NCBI GenBank assembly: GCA_003232915.1 | Contig: QIKE01000055.1 | Span: 1-32,652 of the forward strand | Length of the DNA stretch: 32,652 nt | Direction of reading: 5' to 3' | Source of the DNA: Bacteroidota bacterium | Lineage (GTDB): Bacteria > Bacteroidota > Bacteroidia > Bacteroidales > F082 | Part shown: one piece after another, positions 5,077-25,649 of the stretch | Numbering within the stretch: the stretch's first letter is position 1 | How the letters are laid out: each line of letters opens with the position of its first letter | Notes under the pieces: model-generated | What the model saw: only the letters and a program-made list of their open reading frames with translations | Database searches by the model: none | What the model was told of the DNA's origin: nothing | Position numbers and translations under genes: made by a program

Positions 5077-8028
5077 TTATGGTATTTTGACATTTGCCGG
5101 TTTTTGAAGTGCATTGTAAAACAGCTCGTGGATATTAGTGCGAATGTCTTCGTCCATAATGATGCGGTTGTACATATCGGGATAAACGCGGTTGGAGAGG
5201 AATACATAAACTAAACCGTTTTTAGGGTCTGCCCAAGTATAGGTACCCGTAAAGCCTGAATGTCCGAAACTACTGTCCGACACACTTTTGCAGTTGGTCA
5301 TATGGTCAACGTAGCGAAGTAGAGGCTTGTCGAAACCCAGTCCTCGGCGATTGCTGTCGGCAACAAAATAACGTCTGTTGAACAGGTCGATTGTTTGACT
5401 TTCGAGTACTCTGTTACCGTTGTAGACGCCACCGTCCATTAGCATTTGCATCATAACCGCCACATCAAAAGCATTGCCGAAGAGGCCGGCGTGTCCCGAA
5501 ATGCCGCCAAGCATAGCTGCACCTTGATCGTGGACATCGCCAACAAGTTGTTGGCGACGGAAAACAGTGTCGTTTTGGGTGGGTGTAATTTCATCTGTTG
5601 GAAAATAATTTCGCGGTGTAAATACAAGCCTTCCAAGCCCGAGTGGGTGGTAAAAATTTTCGTAAACATATTGATCGAACGGCTTGTCAGTCATTTGTTC
5701 TATCATCAATTTGAATAAATAAAAACCCAAATCGCTGTAGAGGTATTTTTTTTTATCGCTTACCGGTGAGTCGATAATTTCTTGATAAATTTTATAGCTA
5801 TAATTTTTTCGGATGTACATATTCTCGGCTACACGTACGGGATATTTTTCAGAAATATGATTGCTGTAAATCGTGGAATCGGGGCCCGTGGGTGTAAGTG
5901 TTTCTTTATAAAAAGGTATCCAATTTTGTAATCCGGCCTGATGCGAAAGTATTGATTTGAAACTCAACAGCTCTTTGTTGCTGCCTTTGAGCGACAAAAG
6001 ATAATCGGAAAGATTGCCGTTTATATTAATTTTACCCTCTTCGGTCAACTTAATTAAAGCAGGTGTAGTAGCCATAATTTTGGTGAGAGAAGCCAAATCG
6101 TAAAGATCGGTAGCTCTTACAGGTATTTTTTTATAATAAGTATGATAGCCAAAACTTTTGTCATAAAAGATAACACCGTTTTTGGCTGCAAGGATCTGAC
6201 AACCCGGATATGCTCCTATCTCAATTCCTTTCAACGCTATGCTGTCAACGCTTTTCAGTATATTGGTATTGGCACCGACATCGGCGGGCGTTCCAAAACG
6301 TAATCTCGTTTTTCTTAAACTAATCCCATCACCTATCGAAAAAGAACCTATGCTTACCGGAAGTCTGGCATTGGTGCTGCGTTCACCGGCTATCACTTCG
6401 GCCGAGGCTTGTTGTGTTGCAATCTTATCCTGATACGAAACTACAATAGCGCTAAATGATTGCAGGTTTTTAAAATATCCGAGTGCATACGGACTGGCAA
6501 AAATGTTTAAAACTACATTGCTTTGCCTTGTCGCTTTTTCGGCAAATTCGACGTCTGCTGTGCTGATTCCAAAACGGCGTGATGCCGATATGTTGGTATT
6601 TATAAAGGCAATAACGGTTGTTTTGTAGTTGGGAAGTGATTGTAACACAATGTTTTTATCTTTTTCGGTAGCATTGTGTTTCAGATAAAAAACTTTTGTT
6701 TTAAACATTTTTGCCAATGTTTTTTCAAATTCACCATGTGCAGTATTTCCTACAATAACAATAGCAACGGTTCCCGTATCGGCAAGCGGAAGAGGCAATA
6801 TTTTATTTTGGTTGCTAAGTATAGTAATCGATCGGTTGAAAAGGTTGGCGATAAGTTCGGAATACACCTGTTTGTTCAGGTCGTTCAACAAATGGCTCGT
6901 ATCTATGGGTTGGCGTTGCCATGCCTCTGTTAAATATTTATATTTAAGGATTTTTTTACAACTTTTTTCAAGATGTCTGCGCGCTGCTTTACTACTTAAT
7001 ACTTTTGTTTTAATGCTTTCAATTGATGCAGGAATGTCTTCGGGAATGAGCAAAATGTCGTTACCGGCCAAAAAAGCCTGCAAAGCTACTTTGTCTTTTC
7101 CAATATAAAGAGTTACGCCTTTCATGTCAAGCGCATCGGTGATAATCAGACCTTTAAATTTCATTTTCCGTTTTAACAATTTGCTTACGATAGGGTAGGA
7201 GAGGGAAGCCGGAAAGTTTTTGCGCTTGTCCAAAGCCGGTATCGAAAGGTGCGCTACCATTACAGCCGAAACGGGTATGTCTTGTTTGAAAAGAAAACGG
7301 TAAGGATACAAAGCGATGTTGTGAATTTCTTTTTTTGAGGCATTTACAATCGGCAGTGTTTTGTGCGAATCTTGATAAGTATCGCCGTGGCCCGGAAAAT
7401 GTTTGGCACAGGCTACAATTCCTTCGTTCTGCATACCTTTTATGTATTGATAAGCTTTGTGGGCAACGGCCTTCGGGTTCTCCCCGAAAGAGCGCATTCC
7501 GATTATCGGATTTTTCGGGTTGCTGTTTACGTCCACTACCGGTGCAAAATTTATTTGGATACCCATTCGCCGGTATTGTTCGCCAATTTGTTTTCCCATC
7601 AAATAAAGCAAACTATCGCCCAATTGTGCGCCAAGTGTCATTTGTAGAGGGTATTTCAGCGTGTGTTTTAACCGCATACCCAATCCCCATTCGCCGTCCA
7701 TACTAATAAACAAAGGAGTTCTTGCAATCTTATTCCAACGGTTTGTTTGCAGTGCTTGTCCTATTGGGGTGCCTCCGAAAAAAGTAATTCCACCAATGTC
7801 GTATTTTTTTATGTAGTCGTTGATTTTAGAATCGTATGGCTTGTAAGGATTGTTAGCACGAACAAAAATCAATTGTCCGATACGTTGTTCAAGGTTAAGT
7901 GATTGATACACCGAATCTGCCCACCGGTCAGCAGCTTTTTTTCTGTTGATTTGCCCCTGTAATGTTGATGAAAACAATCCGAAATTTAGTGAAATAATAA
8001 GTAAAAAAAATCTAAACCTATACATCAT
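5077..8028 (-). CDS. Glycoside hydrolase family 3 (NagZ-like) fused to a C-terminal beta-lactamase/serine hydrolase domain
   Basis: AKHFPGHGDTYQDSHKTLP (GH3/NagZ motif) and IITDALDMKGV. C-terminal half has SLTK (SxxK), YSDLG and HSGFTG. Start trimmed from 8067 to the ATG at 8028, because a -7 element at 8041-8048 lies inside the longer ORF. Confidence 0.9.
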   Translation of the reverse strand: MMYRFRFFLLIISLNFGLFSSTLQGQINRKKAADRWADSVYQSLNLEQRIGQLIFVRANNPYKPYDSKINDYIKKYDIGGITFFGGTPIGQALQTNRWNKIARTPLFISMDGEWGLGMRLKHTLKYPLQMTLGAQLGDSLLYLMGKQIGEQYRRMGIQINFAPVVDVNSNPKNPIIGMRSFGENPKAVAHKAYQYIKGMQNEGIVACAKHFPGHGDTYQDSHKTLPIVNASKKEIHNIALYPYRFLFKQDIPVSAVMVAHLSIPALDKRKNFPASLSYPIVSKLLKRKMKFKGLIITDALDMKGVTLYIGKDKVALQAFLAGNDILLIPEDIPASIESIKTKVLSSKAARRHLEKSCKKILKYKYLTEAWQRQPIDTSHLLNDLNKQVYSELIANLFNRSITILSNQNKILPLPLADTGTVAIVIVGNTAHGEFEKTLAKMFKTKVFYLKHNATEKDKNIVLQSLPNYKTTVIAFINTNISASRRFGISTADVEFAEKATRQSNVVLNIFASPYALGYFKNLQSFSAIVVSYQDKIATQQASAEVIAGERSTNARLPVSIGSFSIGDGISLRKTRLRFGTPADVGANTNILKSVDSIALKGIEIGAYPGCQILAAKNGVIFYDKSFGYHTYYKKIPVRATDLYDLASLTKIMATTPALIKLTEEGKININGNLSDYLLSLKGSNKELLSFKSILSHQAGLQNWIPFYKETLTPTGPDSTIYSNHISEKYPVRVAENMYIRKNYSYKIYQEIIDSPVSDKKKYLYSDLGFYLFKLMIEQMTDKPFDQYVYENFYHPLGLGRLVFTPRNYFPTDEITPTQNDTVFRRQQLVGDVHDQGAAMLGGISGHAGLFGNAFDVAVMMQMLMDGGVYNGNRVLESQTIDLFNRRYFVADSNRRGLGFDKPLLRYVDHMTNCKSVSDSSFGHSGFTGTYTWADPKNGLVYVFLSNRVYPDMYNRIIMDEDIRTNIHELFYNALQKPANVKIP

Positions 8029-8040
8029 CCGTTTTTTGTA

Positions 8041-8048
8041 CAAAAGTA
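8041..8048 (-). promoter_or_regulatory. -7 promoter element TACTTTTG for the GH3 fusion gene
   Basis: CAAAAGTA on + strand matches TAnnTTTG, immediately upstream of the ATG at 8028. Confidence 0.5.
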
Positions 8049-8177
8049 TGTAATTTGTAAATGCCACATAATTTTAATTGAATTTTGCGGTTCTCTGCTT
8101 TTTGGTTAAATTAGGAAAGTGGCCGGAAATAAATTTGGGAGCAGACCGTTCAATACGAAACTTATTTTACATTAAAA

Positions 8178-15725: not shown

Positions 15726-16961
15726 TTAAGCTTTATTTGCTATTTTTTCCATTATATGATAACTGTCGCCGAGTTTACATAAAGCATTACAATTATCTCT
15801 CAATTCCGATGTCAAAATATACAATATCTCCAAATTGCTGTTACGAATGGCCGGCCTGTTTAATTGCAGTTTTACTTCTTGTTCTCTGTTGTTTGGGATT
15901 ATGATATAAAGTTTCGAATTAGAGGAGGGCAACGAAAATGACAAATCTGTCAACCGTAAAATACCTGAATAAATTGAGGTGCTTTTTTCGACTTCAAATG
16001 CACACACAACGTGATTCGTATCTTTTTCAAACCATACAATGTCAATTAGTTTTATTGTACTGAAAATTTCTTTAGGAACATCTATTTTAGGAAATTCTTT
16101 AATGCTGATAAAGGAAAATTTGTTTCCGTTATAGATTTTTGAACGGTCATTGGAAGCGGCTATTACATCATAATTCAGGGCATTACCAATTTTGAGTAAA
16201 TGATATTGCATTTCAGAATGTAACTCGCTTTCCTGTTTCTCACCAACAACCTTTTGACGCCTTTTCTGCAATTGTTTTAAAATCTTTTCCCTGTCCTTGT
16301 CTGTGAGGGTTGATTCTTGTCCAGCTAAGATATTTTTTGCTCCAATTTCAAAAAGCAAACCGCTAAAAGCACCTAAATCTGTTGAAAGGTACTGTCTGTA
16401 TTGCTGATTTTGTTGAATTATCACTTCACGCATCCTTAAATACTCCGACCAAGAACCTAACTTTACTTTGTCATTAAACAAGATGTTGAAACCTTTTACA
16501 ATTGCCGTATTACAAGGTGGAATAATTGTAGGGTGAAGAAAATACAAGATACTTGCAACCGCCGGGCCTAGTCCTTTTATTTTTTTCTCGTCTAATTTGA
16601 TGATTTCTGTCAAAAGGGTATTTTCATTTGACGTTTTCAGGCAATTTTCTAAAAACTGTCCGAAGTATCGCTTGTTGTCTTGGTTTTCGTAAATGTCTGG
16701 TATTCTGAGTTTTGGCTTCCAATAGAAGGGGTGGGATGCTCCTTCAAATACTTGCTTTTGCTCGGTAATGCAGGTCAAAACAAATTCGAGTGAACTCCCT
16801 TTGTAATCGTTCGGGAAGGTGTCTGCTTTTATGTCGTGTATGACCTGGATGACACCGCGTCTGATCGAACGAAAAGCTTTTAGTCGTTCTTCATTATTCA
16901 CGAACCATGTGTTATATACCAGATCTGAATTTTCTTTATATTGTTTAATTAAATTTTCCAT
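15726..16961 (-). CDS. Putative DNA-acting protein: HhH-like segment plus C-terminal PD-(D/E)xK-like domain
   Basis: [34 protein letters not shown] (HhH-like). C-terminal [34 protein letters not shown] resembles a restriction-nuclease-like core. Start trimmed to MENLIKQ. Confidence 0.55.
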
Positions 16962-17047
16962 TTTTGATTTTCTTACATTATGACCAACGCTTTGAATATG
17001 GGGCGTTTGGCATTTCAACGCTCGTCATTTTCTAATTTACCGAATTT

Positions 17048-17818: not shown

Positions 17819-17826
17819 TACTTTTG
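17819..17826 (+). promoter_or_regulatory. -7 element TACTTTTG upstream of the FMN riboswitch
   Basis: TAnnTTTG match placing a TSS at the 5' edge of the aptamer. Confidence 0.5.
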
Positions 17827-17834
17827 CGGCGACA

Positions 17835-17952
17835 ATTCTTCGGGGCTGGGTGCAATTCCCGACCGGCGGTTAAAGCCCGCGACTCTTACTTTAGGGTGAG
17901 ACTGATTCCGTGAAACCCGGAAGCCGACAGTACAGTCTGGATGATAGAAGAA
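17835..17952 (+). ncRNA. FMN riboswitch (RFN element)
   Basis: Conserved blocks: TTCTTCGGGGCTGGGTGCAATTCCCGACCGGCGGT, AGCCCGCGA, CTGATTCCGTG...CCGGAAGCCGACAGTACAGTCTGGATGATAGAAGAA. Confidence 0.95.
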
Positions 17953-18038
17953 AAGTTGTATTATTGATGATGTATCTTTACGTGGCGGCACTATTATTGG
18001 TGTTGTGATAGTCAATATACGAAATTTCTCTTTTTAAA

Positions 18039-18066
18039 CCCTGAAGAATTTCAGGGATTTTTGTTT
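18039..18066 (+). terminator. Intrinsic terminator in the riboswitch expression platform
   Basis: CCCTGAA-gaat-TTCAGGG followed by ATTTTTGTTTT, between the aptamer and the TonB receptor ATG. Confidence 0.8.
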
Positions 18067-18093
18067 TATTAAAATTTAAAAAAACAATGAAAA

Positions 18094-20667
18094 ATGAAAA
18101 GAGAAATCTTTATTTTAATGTGGGCAGTGCTTTCCGCAGCTGTAGTTTTTTCACAAAATGTTGTAACAGCTACGCTTATTAATCCGCAAAACAAACCGTT
18201 GGCTAACGTTCATATTTTTATTCGAGGAAGTGGCAAAGGAGTTACGAGCAATCAAAACGGATTGTTTCGTTTAAATATTTCCCAAAGGCGGGGAATACTC
18301 GAAATTAAAACCTTGGGTTACAAAACAAAAGTCGTTGGTTTTTCGGTAAAAGGTGTGGAAACAAATCTCGGTAATATCATCCTCGAACCCGAAACATATT
18401 CACTCAACGAAATCACCATCAGTTCGGGTTTAGTACAAAGTCGTAAAACACCTGTTTCCATCACCGAAATCAATGCCCGAACCATTAGCAACGAATTGGC
18501 CGATCAGCCTTTGCCTTTTGCTTTGAATGCCGATCCTGCTGTTTTTACGGTACGCAATGGTGGTGGTAGCGGCGACGCTTTGCTAAGCATTCGTGGATTT
18601 AAACAAGAAAACGTTGCTTTACTTCTCGATGGAATCCCTATCAATGGCGAAGAAAACGGTTTGGTTTACTGGAGCAACTGGCTGGGTCTGAATGACGTGG
18701 CTGCTGAAATCCAAATACAAAAAGGACCTGGTTTTGCCAATCTTGCCTCCAATGCAGTGGGCGGCAGTATCAACATCATTACCATGTCGGCAGGAAAAAT
18801 AAAAAGAGGAAGTTTCAGCATGCAAACTACCGATTACGGAAACATGAAAGTTAACTTATCGCTTAGTAGCGGCAAATTGAAAAACGGTTGGCAATTTGCA
18901 ACGGCTATTTCGGCCTTTGTCGGACGCGGGTATATTGACGCTACTTCTGAAAAAGGATTCTCTTACTTTTTTGCAGCCACCAAAAAGCTAAACCGTAAAA
19001 ACACTTTAAGCATTACCTTGCTTGGTGCACCGCAATATCATAACCAACGCACATTGAAACTTTCGGCAGCAGAAGTAAAACGTTATGGCTATCGTTACAA
19101 CAAAGACTGGGGATGGTACAATGGCAAGATCAAAAACGCTTCGGCTAACTTTTATCACAAACCATTTTTAATTGTTAATCACGACATTACAATTAACTCG
19201 AAACAAAAACTGTCGAATACAGCCTATCTTTCAGTAGGTGCAGGAGGAGGAAAATGGTCGGAACGTTTCAATTATGCACCTTCAATATTTCAATATCGCA
19301 CCGAGTTAGGCCAAATTGATTGGAAAACAATATATTATAATAATGAAAACAACACCGAAACATATATTCTATCCGATGGCAATACGGTTACCGGTTACTC
19401 GAAAAATGTTGGTACTTATTATCTTGCAAGTCATATCGAAACGGGTTTTATGAGTACTTACGAACGACAAATAAATGCACATATAGTACTAACGGGAGGC
19501 GTTCATTATCGTTATTTCAATTCGTTTTTGCGTGAAGAAATTAGTAATTTGATGGGAGGTAAATTTTTTGTTGAAGACTATGCATGGTCCTTGGCAGGAA
19601 TTGCCGGCAGACCTCAGATAAAAACCGTGGGAGATATTATCAAAGTAAACAATCACACCCTTATTAATCTTATAAATATGTATACCCGACTTCAATACAA
19701 AAGCAAAAAAATAATTACTTTTTTAAGTTTGAAAGGCAGCAACAATTGGTATCAACGTATTGATAATTATAATTATATTGTCAATACGAAAAGTCAGGTT
19801 ATCTCAAAGTCGGGATTTGATTTTAGAGGTGGTATAAGTTATGCTATTAATGGCGATAATAATATTTTTTATTTTAATGCCGCTTATATTTCCAAAGTAC
19901 CCTATTTTAAATACGTATTTGGAAATTTCACCAATGTTCCGGTACAAAACTTACACAATGAAAGTATTCGCAATTTCGAAGGCGGCTATCGGTTCGGTGA
20001 CCGTTTTCTTAATTTCGAAATAAACGGTTTTTATAGTTTTTGGCATAATGTGTCGATGCTAACCAACGAATATGTGCAATTAGAAAATAACAGTTCATCA
20101 CGCGCTATGATAAATGGTTTAGATGCGTTACACAAAGGAATTGAAGCTAAAATAATTTGGAAACCCAAACCGGCATTAAATTTTACGGGCTTTGTTTCCA
20201 TTGGAGATTATCGTTGGAAAAACGATGTGTCCGCCACCTTAATTAATAACGATAATGTGGTTACCGATACGGTATTTGTTTATGCTAAAAACTTGTTTGT
20301 GGGAGGCACTGCTCAGCAAAAATATGGTATTATTGCCGATATGCATTTTTTCAGATGGTTGAATCTGAAAACCGAATATATGTATTTTAATAAATTATAT
20401 GCTGATTTTGATCCCGTTAATCGAAACAACCCCGCTACAGGAGGTCAGGCTTTTGAATTTCCGTCTTACGGTTTGTTTAATGTTTATTTGGGAATCTCAT
20501 TCAAATTATTTTCCGGACAGATGCTTTTTCAAGTTAACGGCTACAATTTGTTCAACACACACTATATAGAAACCGGACAAGACGGAGCAGCGCATAATGC
20601 CGAAACATTTAGAGGCTTTTGGTCTTTCGGACGTAATTTGAACTTTATGTTAAAAGTATATTTCTAA
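18094..20667 (+). CDS. TonB-dependent receptor with N-terminal carboxypeptidase-regulatory-like domain; candidate flavin transporter
   Basis: Signal peptide, VVTATLINPQNKPLANVHIFIRGSGKGVTSNQNGLFRL, plug motif RGFKQENVALLLDGIPINGEENGLVYWSNWLGL, C-terminal aromatic NLNFMLKVYF. Preceded by an FMN riboswitch. Confidence 0.92.
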   Translation: MKREIFILMWAVLSAAVVFSQNVVTATLINPQNKPLANVHIFIRGSGKGVTSNQNGLFRLNISQRRGILEIKTLGYKTKVVGFSVKGVETNLGNIILEPETYSLNEITISSGLVQSRKTPVSITEINARTISNELADQPLPFALNADPAVFTVRNGGGSGDALLSIRGFKQENVALLLDGIPINGEENGLVYWSNWLGLNDVAAEIQIQKGPGFANLASNAVGGSINIITMSAGKIKRGSFSMQTTDYGNMKVNLSLSSGKLKNGWQFATAISAFVGRGYIDATSEKGFSYFFAATKKLNRKNTLSITLLGAPQYHNQRTLKLSAAEVKRYGYRYNKDWGWYNGKIKNASANFYHKPFLIVNHDITINSKQKLSNTAYLSVGAGGGKWSERFNYAPSIFQYRTELGQIDWKTIYYNNENNTETYILSDGNTVTGYSKNVGTYYLASHIETGFMSTYERQINAHIVLTGGVHYRYFNSFLREEISNLMGGKFFVEDYAWSLAGIAGRPQIKTVGDIIKVNNHTLINLINMYTRLQYKSKKIITFLSLKGSNNWYQRIDNYNYIVNTKSQVISKSGFDFRGGISYAINGDNNIFYFNAAYISKVPYFKYVFGNFTNVPVQNLHNESIRNFEGGYRFGDRFLNFEINGFYSFWHNVSMLTNEYVQLENNSSSRAMINGLDALHKGIEAKIIWKPKPALNFTGFVSIGDYRWKNDVSATLINNDNVVTDTVFVYAKNLFVGGTAQQKYGIIADMHFFRWLNLKTEYMYFNKLYADFDPVNRNNPATGGQAFEFPSYGLFNVYLGISFKLFSGQMLFQVNGYNLFNTHYIETGQDGAAHNAETFRGFWSFGRNLNFMLKVYF

Positions 20668-21089
20668 CAATAATAAGCTAAAATCAGTATTTGAATTAGA
20701 ATTTATGTAATATTCAGTTGAAATGACATGGTTAACACGTTGAATATTTCAGCATTAATATTTTTTAACAAAATCACAATAAAACTTCATTGATAAAAAT
20801 ATCAATGAAATAAGATTTTATTATGAAAAATATTTGAACATTTATCAAATCTATTTTATCGTATCATTTTGATTTTTAGCATTATAAATCAGCCGAATAG
20901 TTGTGAATATATTTATAAGAAAAATATTTTTCAACATGTTATTCCCTTTTATCAATTAAATTGTCAATTGTTTATATTCGGGTATACATAATTTTGATAA
21001 ATTCTTAACAATTAATTCATCCTAAATTTTATTCAAATTTTTATTTTAGCAGCATAATTTAGAAACCAAAACTTTTAAAATTATTGTTT

Positions 21090-23699
21090 ATGAAAAAAGA
21101 ACATCTACTTTTAGCTCTGATGCTTAGCCTGCTTTTCGCAACTGCTATTTTTGCACAGGGTGTAGTTAAAGGCGTTGTTATGGACGCCGGTAATGGTGAA
21201 ACTCTTGTGGGTGCCACCGTTGTTATCGAAGGAACTACCATCGGTTTAACCACCAATCTCGACGGGAGTTTCCTTTTGATTGCCCCAGTTGGCGATCATA
21301 AATTAAAAGTCAGTTTTGTAGGTTACGAACCTAAAACTATTGACATTTCGGTAAAAACCGGTTCGACTTACAATGTAGGAAATATCAACCTCAAAACCAG
21401 TGCTATTGGACTTAGCGAAGTAAATATCCTGGCTTCTGTTGCTATTGACCGGAAAACTCCGGTTGCTGTTTCAACCATCAGTGAACAAACCATTGAAAAC
21501 AATCTCGGCAGCCAAGAATTTCCCGAAATCATGAAAAATACACCTAACGTGTATGCTACCAAAACCGGCGGAGGTTACGGAGATTCCCGTGTAAACGTTC
21601 GTGGTTTCGACCAGCAAAATGTGGCGGTTTTGATTAACGGTATCCCCGTTAATGATATGGAAAACGGCTGGGTGTATTGGTCTAACTGGGCAGGCCTTGG
21701 CGATGCCACACGTTCTATTCAAATTCAACGTGGTTTGGGTGCTTCCAAATTGGCCATCAACTCTGTTGGAGGAACCATCAACATTATCACCAAAACCTCC
21801 GACATGAATAAAGGTGGTTCTATTCAAATAGGAGCTACCGACTTCGGTCGTTTCAAACAAATACTTACCTTATCCACAGGTAAATTAAAAACAGGAACCG
21901 CTATTACTTTTGTGGGTTCGCATACTTATGGAAACGGTTATATCGCTGCTACTTGGGTAAAAGCTTGGTCGTATTTCCTGTCGGTTTCGCAAGATTTTGG
22001 TAAAAATAACCAATTGGTATTCACTGCAATAGGTGCGCCCCAAGAACATGGCCAAAGAAACAACTATTATATGCTCGACTCATCAATGTTCAACAGATAT
22101 GGACCCAAATACAACGAAAATTGGGGATACCGTGGTGGCGAGCTACTCAACGAACGTATAAATTATTATCATAAACCTCAGTTGGCTTTAAATTGGTACT
22201 GGAAAATTAACGACAAAGCTAATCTGGCCACCTCAGCTTATTATTCGTTTGGTACAGGTGGCGGTTCAGGACCGCTTGGCAAATATCCTTATAAATACGA
22301 ACCACCTAAAACGTCATACGGTCAATATGATTGGGATAAAATGTCGGATATTAATGCTGCAAATGTAGATACCACCGATGCTATTAAAAACGGCCAATAT
22401 TCTGTTTCAGTGAAAGATGGCGACACTACTTATAAGTATATGCACAGATCAATCCATATTATCCGTAATTCGGTAAACAACCACCAATGGTATGGATTAC
22501 TCTCAACATTGACTTACAATTTTAACGATATGCTAACCCTAACTGCCGGTATTGACACCCGCTATTACAAAGGTACGCACTATCGCGAAGTTCGCGATCT
22601 GCTTGGTGGTGACTACTGGTCAGATTCAAAATTTGGAGCCGCTAAAGTCGGTGACAAAATTGCGTACTGGAACGATGGTATTGTAGGCTATAGCGGCTTG
22701 TTTAGCCAATTAGAATACACCAGAGGAATTTTAAATGTCTTTGTTGCGGCTACTTTCTCTAACACAACAACAAAACGAATAGACTATCGTACTTACCTTC
22801 CCGAAAATACCAAAGCTGTAAGTGCTGTGTTGTCGAACAACGGATATGATTTTAAAGCAGGGGCGAATGTTAATATTAGCGAAAGAAGCAACTTTTACGT
22901 AAATGCCGGTTTTTATTCTCGTGTTCCCTTCTTCAAGTTTATGTTCCTTAATTATAGTAATGAGGTGAATTCCAAGTTGAAAAATGAAAAAATTACTGCT
23001 GCCGAATTAGGTTATACTTACAAAGCACCTAAATTCAATGTAAAAGTAAATGCCTATTACACTATTTGGAGTGATATTTCTATGCTCACAGGATTCGTTT
23101 CCGATAGCGGCAAATATGTTATCGCATTTATGTCGAGTTTGAAAGAGATACACAAAGGAATTGAAATTGAAGCAAGTTGGAAAACTAATCGTTGGTTGAA
23201 GCTCGGTGGAATGGCTAACCTTGGTAATTGGAAATATACCGATGATGCCAGTGCTATTTTATATGATGACCAAACTCAAGAACCAATTGGTCAAGGTGCC
23301 ATTTATACTAAGGGTCTTAAGGTAGGCAACCAACCTCAAACATCTTTCGGTATTAACACTAAAATTAAAGTTACCAAAAGTATTGATTTGGGAGTTAATT
23401 ATCTCTACTACATGGACTTGTACGCTCAATTTAAACCCGAAACACGTAAAAATCCTAATGAAACCGGTCAAGCATTCAAACTACCCAATTATGGTAATGT
23501 AGATATGCGTCTCGGGTGGAGATTCAAATTTGCGGGACTTGATTCGTACTTTAACTGGAACGTCTATAATGTTATGAACAATGTAGTGTTGGTTGAAGCC
23601 GAAGATAAATATAATGGCAACAGAGGTGAGTATGTATTTAAAAAAGGTTTCTGGAGTTGGGGACGTAACATGAATTTCTCGTTGAAAGTTCGTTTCTAA
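21090..23699 (+). CDS. TonB-dependent receptor, paralogue of the preceding gene
   Basis: VVKGVVMDAGNGETLVGATVVIEGTTIGLTTNLDGSFLL, RGFDQQNVAVLINGIPVNDMENGWVYWSNWAGLGDATRSIQIQRG. Start set at ATG 21090. Confidence 0.92.
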   Translation: MKKEHLLLALMLSLLFATAIFAQGVVKGVVMDAGNGETLVGATVVIEGTTIGLTTNLDGSFLLIAPVGDHKLKVSFVGYEPKTIDISVKTGSTYNVGNINLKTSAIGLSEVNILASVAIDRKTPVAVSTISEQTIENNLGSQEFPEIMKNTPNVYATKTGGGYGDSRVNVRGFDQQNVAVLINGIPVNDMENGWVYWSNWAGLGDATRSIQIQRGLGASKLAINSVGGTINIITKTSDMNKGGSIQIGATDFGRFKQILTLSTGKLKTGTAITFVGSHTYGNGYIAATWVKAWSYFLSVSQDFGKNNQLVFTAIGAPQEHGQRNNYYMLDSSMFNRYGPKYNENWGYRGGELLNERINYYHKPQLALNWYWKINDKANLATSAYYSFGTGGGSGPLGKYPYKYEPPKTSYGQYDWDKMSDINAANVDTTDAIKNGQYSVSVKDGDTTYKYMHRSIHIIRNSVNNHQWYGLLSTLTYNFNDMLTLTAGIDTRYYKGTHYREVRDLLGGDYWSDSKFGAAKVGDKIAYWNDGIVGYSGLFSQLEYTRGILNVFVAATFSNTTTKRIDYRTYLPENTKAVSAVLSNNGYDFKAGANVNISERSNFYVNAGFYSRVPFFKFMFLNYSNEVNSKLKNEKITAAELGYTYKAPKFNVKVNAYYTIWSDISMLTGFVSDSGKYVIAFMSSLKEIHKGIEIEASWKTNRWLKLGGMANLGNWKYTDDASAILYDDQTQEPIGQGAIYTKGLKVGNQPQTSFGINTKIKVTKSIDLGVNYLYYMDLYAQFKPETRKNPNETGQAFKLPNYGNVDMRLGWRFKFAGLDSYFNWNVYNVMNNVVLVEAEDKYNGNRGEYVFKKGFWSWGRNMNFSLKVRF

Positions 23700-23939: not shown

Positions 23940-25649
23940 ATGAAATATTTTGTGCAACAAAATTTTTTGAAGACCATTCATCTTCTTTTTGTTAACTTAT
24001 TAATCTTCAGCTTTGTTCCAATGTTGTTGCCGGCGCAGGTAGTACCTAAACTCCCTCCCGAAATTCCCGACGACCCATATATGTCGCCTCCTGCCTTAAG
24101 AGAAACTTCGGCAGGTTACCGTTCGGTAACAAGCCAATATTTTACCACACAAGTTAATGTAAATGCTGATGGAGAAAACATTGTGGGTGATGCGGCCAAC
24201 GAACCTTCTATTGCTATTGATCCGACAAATTCCAACCGGATTGTTATCGGCTGGCGGCAGTTCGACAATGTAAATAGCAATTTCAGACAAGCCGGTTATG
24301 CTTACTCTTCCGATGCCGGCAAAACTTGGACTTTCCCTGGAGTTATTGATTCCGGTGTATTTCGTTCCGACCCTGTTTTGGATTTCGATGCGGAAGGAAA
24401 TTTTTATTACAATAGCCTTACCGTTGATCAATACAATAATTTTAGCTGTAATGTATATCGTACAAGCAACGGCAATTTTTCATGGGATTACGGCCCTTAT
24501 GCCTATGGAGGCGACAAACAATGGATGGCTATTGATCGTACAAACAGTATGGGAAAGGGAAATGTATATGCCATGTGGTCATACTATTACAGCTCGTGTA
24601 ACCCAGGATTTTTTACTCGTTCAATTGACGATGGTGATACCTACCAAAGTTGTACCACTGTTGCAGGCAGTCCGTATTGGGGCACTATGGCCGTTGGGCT
24701 TGATGGTGCACTTTTCGCGGCCGGTGTTTCCGGCGATAATGGAGAATTTGTTGTTGCCAAATCAAGTACAGCAAAAAATCCCGAATCAAATGTTAGTTGG
24801 GATTTTTCAACAAATGTTGACCTTGGCGGATATATGCAAAGCGCTGACGGACCTAATCCTGTCGGGCTTAAAGGACAGGTTTGGATAGCTGTGGATAGCT
24901 CAAACGGGCAAGGAAGAGGAAATGTGTATATACTTTGCTCGGTAAAACCCAACAATAGTTTCGACCCTTGTGATGTGATGTTTGCCCGAAGTACCGATGG
25001 AGGCCACACTTGGGACACTCCCGTAAGAATAAACGACGATACAACCGACAATACATGGCAATGGTTTGGAACTATGTCGGTAGCACCAAATGGCCGTATT
25101 GATGTTGTTTGGCTTGATACGCGCGATAATCCCGGTACCTATAACTCGTCGCTATATTATTCGTATTCAATTGACCAGGGAGAAACTTGGTCGCAGAATC
25201 AACGTATTTCCAATGCTTTCGATCCTCATGTAGGCTGGCCACAACAGCAAAAAATGGGAGATTACTACAATATGGTATCATTAAGCAATGGCGTTCATCT
25301 TGCTTGGGCTAATACCCTCAATGGCGAGCAGGATGTATATTACACTCACATTTATTCCGGGTTTGAAGGTGTGAACCAACACAGTTTTAGTCAGATTTCT
25401 CTTTCGGCTTACCCCAATCCGGTTCGTAGCGCTACAAACATTAGATATAGTATCGAACATAACGGTAAAATAAAAATTATTGTTAGTGATATGCTTGGAA
25501 AACAAATAGCCTGCCTTGCAAATAAAGAACAAAAAGCCGGAAATTATCTGCTTCGTTGGAATGCCTCCGACCTGCCCGAAGGAGTTTATTATTGCCGCTT
25601 GGATAATGGAAAATACCAAAAAACTATTAAATTGCTTGTGGTTCGATGA
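23940..25649 (+). CDS. Secreted BNR/sialidase-like beta-propeller protein with T9SS C-terminal sorting domain
   Basis: Asp-box-like repeats SSDAGKTWTF, SIDDGDTYQS, STDGGHTWDTP, SIDQGETWSQ. C-terminus LSAYPNPVRSATNIRYSIEHNGKIKIIVSDMLGKQI...GNYLLRWNASDLPEGVYYCRLDNGKYQKTIKLLVVR is type-A CTD-like. Confidence 0.88.
   Translation: MKYFVQQNFLKTIHLLFVNLLIFSFVPMLLPAQVVPKLPPEIPDDPYMSPPALRETSAGYRSVTSQYFTTQVNVNADGENIVGDAANEPSIAIDPTNSNRIVIGWRQFDNVNSNFRQAGYAYSSDAGKTWTFPGVIDSGVFRSDPVLDFDAEGNFYYNSLTVDQYNNFSCNVYRTSNGNFSWDYGPYAYGGDKQWMAIDRTNSMGKGNVYAMWSYYYSSCNPGFFTRSIDDGDTYQSCTTVAGSPYWGTMAVGLDGALFAAGVSGDNGEFVVAKSSTAKNPESNVSWDFSTNVDLGGYMQSADGPNPVGLKGQVWIAVDSSNGQGRGNVYILCSVKPNNSFDPCDVMFARSTDGGHTWDTPVRINDDTTDNTWQWFGTMSVAPNGRIDVVWLDTRDNPGTYNSSLYYSYSIDQGETWSQNQRISNAFDPHVGWPQQQKMGDYYNMVSLSNGVHLAWANTLNGEQDVYYTHIYSGFEGVNQHSFSQISLSAYPNPVRSATNIRYSIEHNGKIKIIVSDMLGKQIACLANKEQKAGNYLLRWNASDLPEGVYYCRLDNGKYQKTIKLLVVR

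Follow-up and report, generated by a model that had tools for sequence, protein, structure and literature searches.

TonB-dependent receptors controlled by riboswitches are known for the vitamins B12 and thiamin (PMC2211319, PMC5317091). In the thiamin systems of the omr/BT2390 type (PMC2211319, PMC5317091) and in that of the B12 receptor BtuB, a riboswitch for the vitamin cofactor lies before the receptor gene, the cofactor represses expression and the receptor serves vitamin salvage. FMN riboswitches control the inner-membrane riboflavin transporters RibU, PnuX/RibM, RibXY, RfnT, ImpX and RibZ, and these inner-membrane transporters sometimes compensate for a missing rib operon (PMC3766115, PMC4418817). 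The texts of these two surveys (PMC3766115, PMC4418817) make no mention of TonB or of any outer-membrane transporter under FMN control, and our search of openly licensed PMC papers brought up none that describes a TonB receptor gene behind an FMN riboswitch; comparative-genomics tables may mention such a pairing.

We analysed a 32,652-nucleotide stretch of Bacteroidales DNA (contig QIKE01000055.1; hereafter the window), in which an FMN riboswitch precedes the gene of a TonB-dependent receptor, T1. Like the thiamin and B12 systems, the locus has a vitamin-cofactor riboswitch before a TonB-dependent receptor, and repression by the cofactor and vitamin salvage are proposed for T1 too. It differs from them in riboswitch class (FMN), in predicted cargo (a flavin) and in that T1 does not belong to the BtuB family. 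The gene directly follows an FMN riboswitch, as do those of RibU, PnuX, RibXY, RfnT, ImpX and RibZ, but these proteins act at the cytoplasmic membrane whereas T1 is an outer-membrane TonB-dependent receptor. Judging from its sequence, T1 probably works like the known vitamin receptors and is, as a receptor, neither BtuB nor SusC.

The riboswitch leader and the T1 receptor

The leader and T1 comprise the following features of the window:

17819–17826, + strand: Bacteroidetes-type −7 promoter box TACTTTTG, which fits TAnnTTTG (sequence reading)
17832–17956, + strand: FMN riboswitch aptamer (RFN element), full-length match to RF00050 at 111.3 bits
17838–17845, + strand: 5′ P1/junction strand CTTCGGGG, complementary to the terminator 5′ arm and its proposed anti-terminator partner
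18039–18046, + strand: terminator 5′ arm CCCTGAAG, part of the stem-loop 18039–18056
18039–18064, + strand: intrinsic terminator, stem-loop 18039–18056 plus T-rich tail (folding energy and terminator scan)
18094–20667, + strand: T1, TonB-dependent receptor of 857 aa, proposed outer-membrane flavin importer (Pfam, clade and structure model)

The consensus and six-helix structure of the FMN riboswitch were recognized above the family cut-off (111.3 bits, with the gathering score at 66.2; E = 2.3e-25), with 138 of 138 model positions covered. The original prediction, made by reading the letters, had placed the aptamer at 17835–17952, at most 4 bases from these boundaries, and the covariance model upheld that call. 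This is the sole FMN riboswitch detected in the 2.53-Mb source assembly, which is 86.6% complete. The −7 element predicted just 5′ of the aptamer proved to be a recurrent one: in the window the box ends 5 bases 5′ of the aptamer, and of 101 related leaders, 73 have TAnnTTTG no more than 35 nt before the aptamer core, where shuffled sequences would yield 2.0. Folding energy (−10.1 kcal/mol, z −2.5) and the terminator scan agree on the hairpin at 18039–18056, likewise foreseen, which is followed by ATTTTTGTTTT.

The arm CCCTGAAG is complementary to CTTCGGGG over 8 nt, one G–U pair among them. Complements of at least 8 nt between the P1 strand and the terminator arm were found in 45 of 90 leaders (9.3 in composition-only shuffles), and GCCCYG was present in 69 of 92 leaders (1.2 in composition-only shuffles). 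By sequence alone, the aptamer has a downstream expression platform coupled to P1. The complementarity fits the classical FMN-off scheme by transcription termination, and it speaks for the earlier proposal that FMN shuts T1 off. Transcription of T1 would start at the housekeeping promoter adjoining the aptamer. At low cytoplasmic FMN, the terminator 5′ arm (18039–18046) would pair with the P1 strand (17838–17845) of the unliganded aptamer and T1 would be transcribed; at high FMN, the ligand would close P1, the freed arm would allow the terminator to form and T1 would be off.

The 857-aa receptor follows as predicted (ORF 18094–20667), with no rib gene or other gene in between. T1 matches the plug domain PF07715 with 44.4 bits (cut-off 23.9) and CarbopepD_reg_2 with 44.8 bits in Pfam. 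It scores below the Pfam barrel model, but its AlphaFold plug-and-barrel model (pLDDT 88.2) matches full receptors with a probability of 1.00. Between the N-terminal domain and the plug, the model drops to low confidence only at residues 101–106, and no TonB box was assigned. The closest solved structure is PqqU (YncD; E = 1.5e-42, TMt 0.81), a TonB-dependent importer of pyrroloquinoline quinone, itself a small aromatic redox cofactor. T1 resembles PqqU in fold but is only 14% identical and has an extra N-terminal carboxypeptidase-regulatory-like domain; the modelled match indicates the general receptor fold and not the ligand of T1, and siderophore receptors are numerous among the best fold matches. 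Assignment to characterized families was rejected for BtuB (TIGR01779, 27.3 bits against a cut-off of 599.7) and for the siderophore-receptor equivalogs, whose family cut-offs T1 did not reach. T1 shares with SusC/RagA the carboxypeptidase-regulatory-like domain before the plug, but no TIGR04056 match was listed and no SusD-like ORF is adjacent.

Recurrence of the riboswitch–receptor unit

Across an order-wide sample of 197 Bacteroidales genomes, 41 carried an FMN riboswitch above the cut-off. It is mostly followed either by a TonB-dependent receptor or by rib genes, the latter as a ribD-E-BA-H operon or as ribB/ribBA alone. The receptor context was present in 16 genomes, counting G147, in which the riboswitch (L058, G147:C157) stands before an Oar-like receptor gene that is not T1 and is truncated by the end of its contig. 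Using 14 riboswitch-linked receptors as queries against GTDB species genomes, we took the best 80 relatives, which are 38–57% identical to T1 and nearly all titled as Bacteroidota bins; metagenome bins also make up most of the genomes compared throughout. A covariance model built from 22 leaders, and spot-checked with Rfam's own, detected an FMN riboswitch upstream of 75 of the 80. Four of the other five start at a contig edge, and the remaining one, L079, has cleanly lost the riboswitch compared with its near twin L080. A sample of 60 genomes from the window's family contained 49 FMN riboswitches, of which 39 lie 111–167 nt 5′ of a T1 and 5 precede rib genes; the last 5 comprise those of G204 and G228, split by contig ends, and 3 others. 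Orthologues of T1 were thus found to carry RFN elements, as the original prediction needed, and FMN-riboswitch control extends across them (75/80 relatives; 39/49 family riboswitches). The arrangement recurs in dozens of genomes, confirming that it is beyond chance.

In a FastTree phylogeny of 115 receptors, the 86 riboswitch-linked entries formed one clade with 100% support, 5 of these 86 (the four at contig edges and L079) having received that label only through sequence kinship. Related receptors whose genomes lack the unit branch outside the T1 clade. One separate riboswitch acquisition, in G050, falls in a sister group that also includes T2, the receptor encoded after T1 in the window. 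Positions A445, H471, S477, L479, W498, R506, N560, E659 and Q662 are fixed in the T1 clade and differ in relatives without a riboswitch. The most divergent riboswitch-linked receptor (L046, G125:C40) has 786 aa and no N-terminal regulatory domain.

Genes behind and around the riboswitch

We compared loci in which the same surroundings hold different genes. In G240 the order is NlpC-Trx-TrxB-RFN-ribD-ribE-ribBA-ribH-receptor-NPP-PhoD; in G229 and G216, of the same genus, it is the same except that T1 replaces the four rib genes. A second genus repeats the difference, G180 and G075 being distinguished by whether ribD-E-BA-H or T1 lies behind the riboswitch. The flanks of these two loci match (NlpC 79% and the second receptor 92% identical), and their riboswitches are 91% identical, share an insertion and are each other's closest among those compared. 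These sequences are most simply read as a riboswitch that stayed while the cargo behind it was swapped; in some lineages riboswitch and cargo may have been exchanged together. A riboswitch that once governed ribD-E-BA-H would have been kept in place, and T1 substituted as synthesis was lost.

Further features of the window flank T1 and its leader:

5077–8067, − strand: glycoside hydrolase family 3 enzyme fused to a beta-lactamase-family domain (996 aa)
15726–17018, − strand: 430-aa ORF upstream of the riboswitch, no Pfam match
20786–20809, + strand: strong hairpin after T1, possible T1 transcript end (−9.5 kcal/mol, z −5.4)
21090–23699, + strand: T2, another TonB-dependent receptor, in tandem with T1 (Pfam)
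23940–25649, + strand: BNR-repeat protein (569 aa) carrying a type IX secretion sorting domain, placed after T2 where relatives have NPP

T2 orthologues lie directly 3′ of T1 in other loci, and behind RFN-ribDEBAH in G240. We do not conclude that T1 and T2 are certainly co-regulated, since the hairpin at 20786–20809 separates them in the window. Seven other loci (L119, L125, L128, L129, L140, L147, L148) encode, 9–36 bp 3′ of T1, a protein of some 470 aa that has no Pfam match and, from this spacing, is probably cotranscribed with T1.

The second receptor is followed by NPP (PF01663), whose closest solved relatives are ENPP-type nucleotide pyrophosphatases, in 30 of the 38 loci with enough sequence, and PhoD (PF09423) is often next. 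Judged by family, NPP and PhoD could convert periplasmic FAD to riboflavin. This raises a tentative refinement of flavin import by T1, in which the true cargo would be FAD or FMN instead of free riboflavin and T1, T2, NPP and PhoD together would form a salvage system for nucleotide flavins, with FAD cut in the periplasm first to FMN and next to riboflavin. The frequency of NPP and PhoD after the second receptor suggests such a pathway, as does the same receptor-NPP-PhoD order behind the RFN-rib operons of G240 and G211. Against it, the two enzymes are also encoded beside other receptors where there is no riboswitch, and the window locus itself has lost NPP, whose orthologue lies elsewhere. We rejected NPP and PhoD as flavin-specific markers, because the cassette is also found without riboswitch or T1 in riboflavin makers. 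A locus of the order NlpC/P60-(Trx-TrxB)-TonB receptor-NPP-PhoD is conserved in Bacteroidales with or without the flavin unit (L200, L201, L202, L203, L236, L237). A wider proposal, that T1 and the second receptor import FAD, FMN and riboflavin for stripping by NPP and PhoD as a complete salvage system, with auxotrophy arising by cassette swap, seems to us rather doubtful as a whole.

No flavin-specific inner-membrane partner was found among the PnuC, PF03825 and MFS candidates in the compared loci. PnuC-family proteins (PF04973) are not diagnostic, being present in prototrophs and auxotrophs alike. The nucleoside-H+ symporter family PF03825 is no general partner either, occurring behind the receptor in G125 only; there, at L046, its gene (410 bits) starts 47 bp after the receptor and is a candidate inner-membrane partner. 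The MFS gene that recurs in 9 loci was set aside too, as it mostly lies behind an oppositely oriented gene.

Riboflavin synthesis and the predicted role of T1

Lumazine synthase RibH (PF00885) was found in 162 and missing in 35 of the 197 order-sample genomes. All 16 riboswitch–receptor genomes are among the 35, and all genomes with the riboswitch before rib genes are among the 162 (unit versus RibH absence, Fisher p = 3e-14 by genome, uncorrected for kinship; 13 versus 20 families). DHBP synthase RibB (PF00926) and riboflavin synthase RibE (PF00677) are likewise missing in 16 of 16 unit genomes, most of which are more than 92% complete, and both are present in 7 of 7 controls; flavokinase RibF (PF01687) was found in all 23. 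Five genomes (G005, G118, G123, G157, G040) have a second, more divergent flavokinase-family gene (58–89 bits) beside the main RibF. With RibH, RibB and RibE gone and RibF kept, these bacteria depend on a supply of riboflavin, FMN or FAD. As far as gene content tells, they could not finish a precursor such as ribityl-lumazine; the original prediction had named riboflavin, FMN or a flavin precursor as substrate, and the first two stand, with FAD beside them, while the lost riboflavin synthase argues against a precursor.

The window's family shows the same coincidence. RibH is present in only 6 of its 60 genomes: G100, G236 and G211 have RFN-rib and no T1; G240 has RFN-ribDEBAH followed by a T2-type receptor; in G203, RibH is broken by five stops; and G247 has RFN-T1 plus an unlinked RibH, a real exception. 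The decaying rib operon of G203 stands behind an intact riboswitch (L241; G203:C181:8256-8404, − strand), with ribD and ribBA as fragments, and apparently captures the loss of riboflavin synthesis in progress. G198, of the window's genus and assembled in one contig at 99% completeness, has RFN-T1-T2-NPP and no RibH. The unit thus occurs where flavin must be imported (16/16 in the order sample), G247 being the one exception in the family sample. Nineteen RibH-lacking order-sample genomes are without the unit, as are G223 and G246, and some of these genomes are 99% complete. The 19 must use something else, and the unit is not the sole solution.

Riboswitch linkage, rib loss, locus exchange and the single clade together make T1 very probably an outer-membrane importer of riboflavin, FMN or FAD in Bacteroidales riboflavin auxotrophs. 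The predicted function as a flavin importer accordingly draws on the riboswitches of the orthologues and on their coincidence with rib loss while flavokinase is kept. T1 would bring riboflavin, FMN or FAD across the outer membrane into the periplasm, a separate inner-membrane transporter would carry the periplasmic flavin in, and the retained RibF would make FMN and FAD. We infer the ligand, the direction of transport, the regulation in the cell and the order of events from these patterns, and give the whole explanation (a flavin importer, switched off by FMN, whose gene took the place of the rib operon behind the riboswitch) a probability of about 0.86. Riboflavin is small enough for diffusion through porins to be conceivable, which counts against it.

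It is improbable that T1 imports something else, such as iron, a siderophore or a nucleotide, and is merely flavin-regulated because a leftover riboswitch captured the gene behind it. Siderophores are the cargo of most characterized TonB-dependent receptors and their receptors are many among the fold matches of T1, and the cassette of second receptor, NPP and PhoD also occurs without the riboswitch in riboflavin makers. Random capture, however, would be expected to yield varied cargo, whereas the receptors behind the riboswitch belong to a single clade whose members hardly ever lack it, in a unit confined, with one exception, to genomes without riboflavin synthesis. Still less probable is an artefact of incomplete bins that have failed to capture the rib genes, T1 then being an accessory importer in riboflavin makers: the window assembly is only 86.6% complete and G247 has both the unit and RibH, but all 16 genomes, mostly more than 92% complete, lack the three enzymes jointly, RibF is always found, and the single-contig, 99% complete G198 has the unit and no RibH.

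Flavin import by T1 offers a defined receptor clade for the outer-membrane step of flavin uptake, and makes the riboswitch–receptor unit a marker by which riboflavin auxotrophy can be recognized in the genomes of uncultured Bacteroidales, suggesting that organisms bearing it need added flavin for cultivation. Pairs of species have the same riboswitch in the same place driving either synthesis or, as predicted, import. If the wider proposal of a complete salvage system is true, whole lineages would have turned riboflavin auxotroph by exchanging an operon for an importer behind one retained FMN riboswitch.
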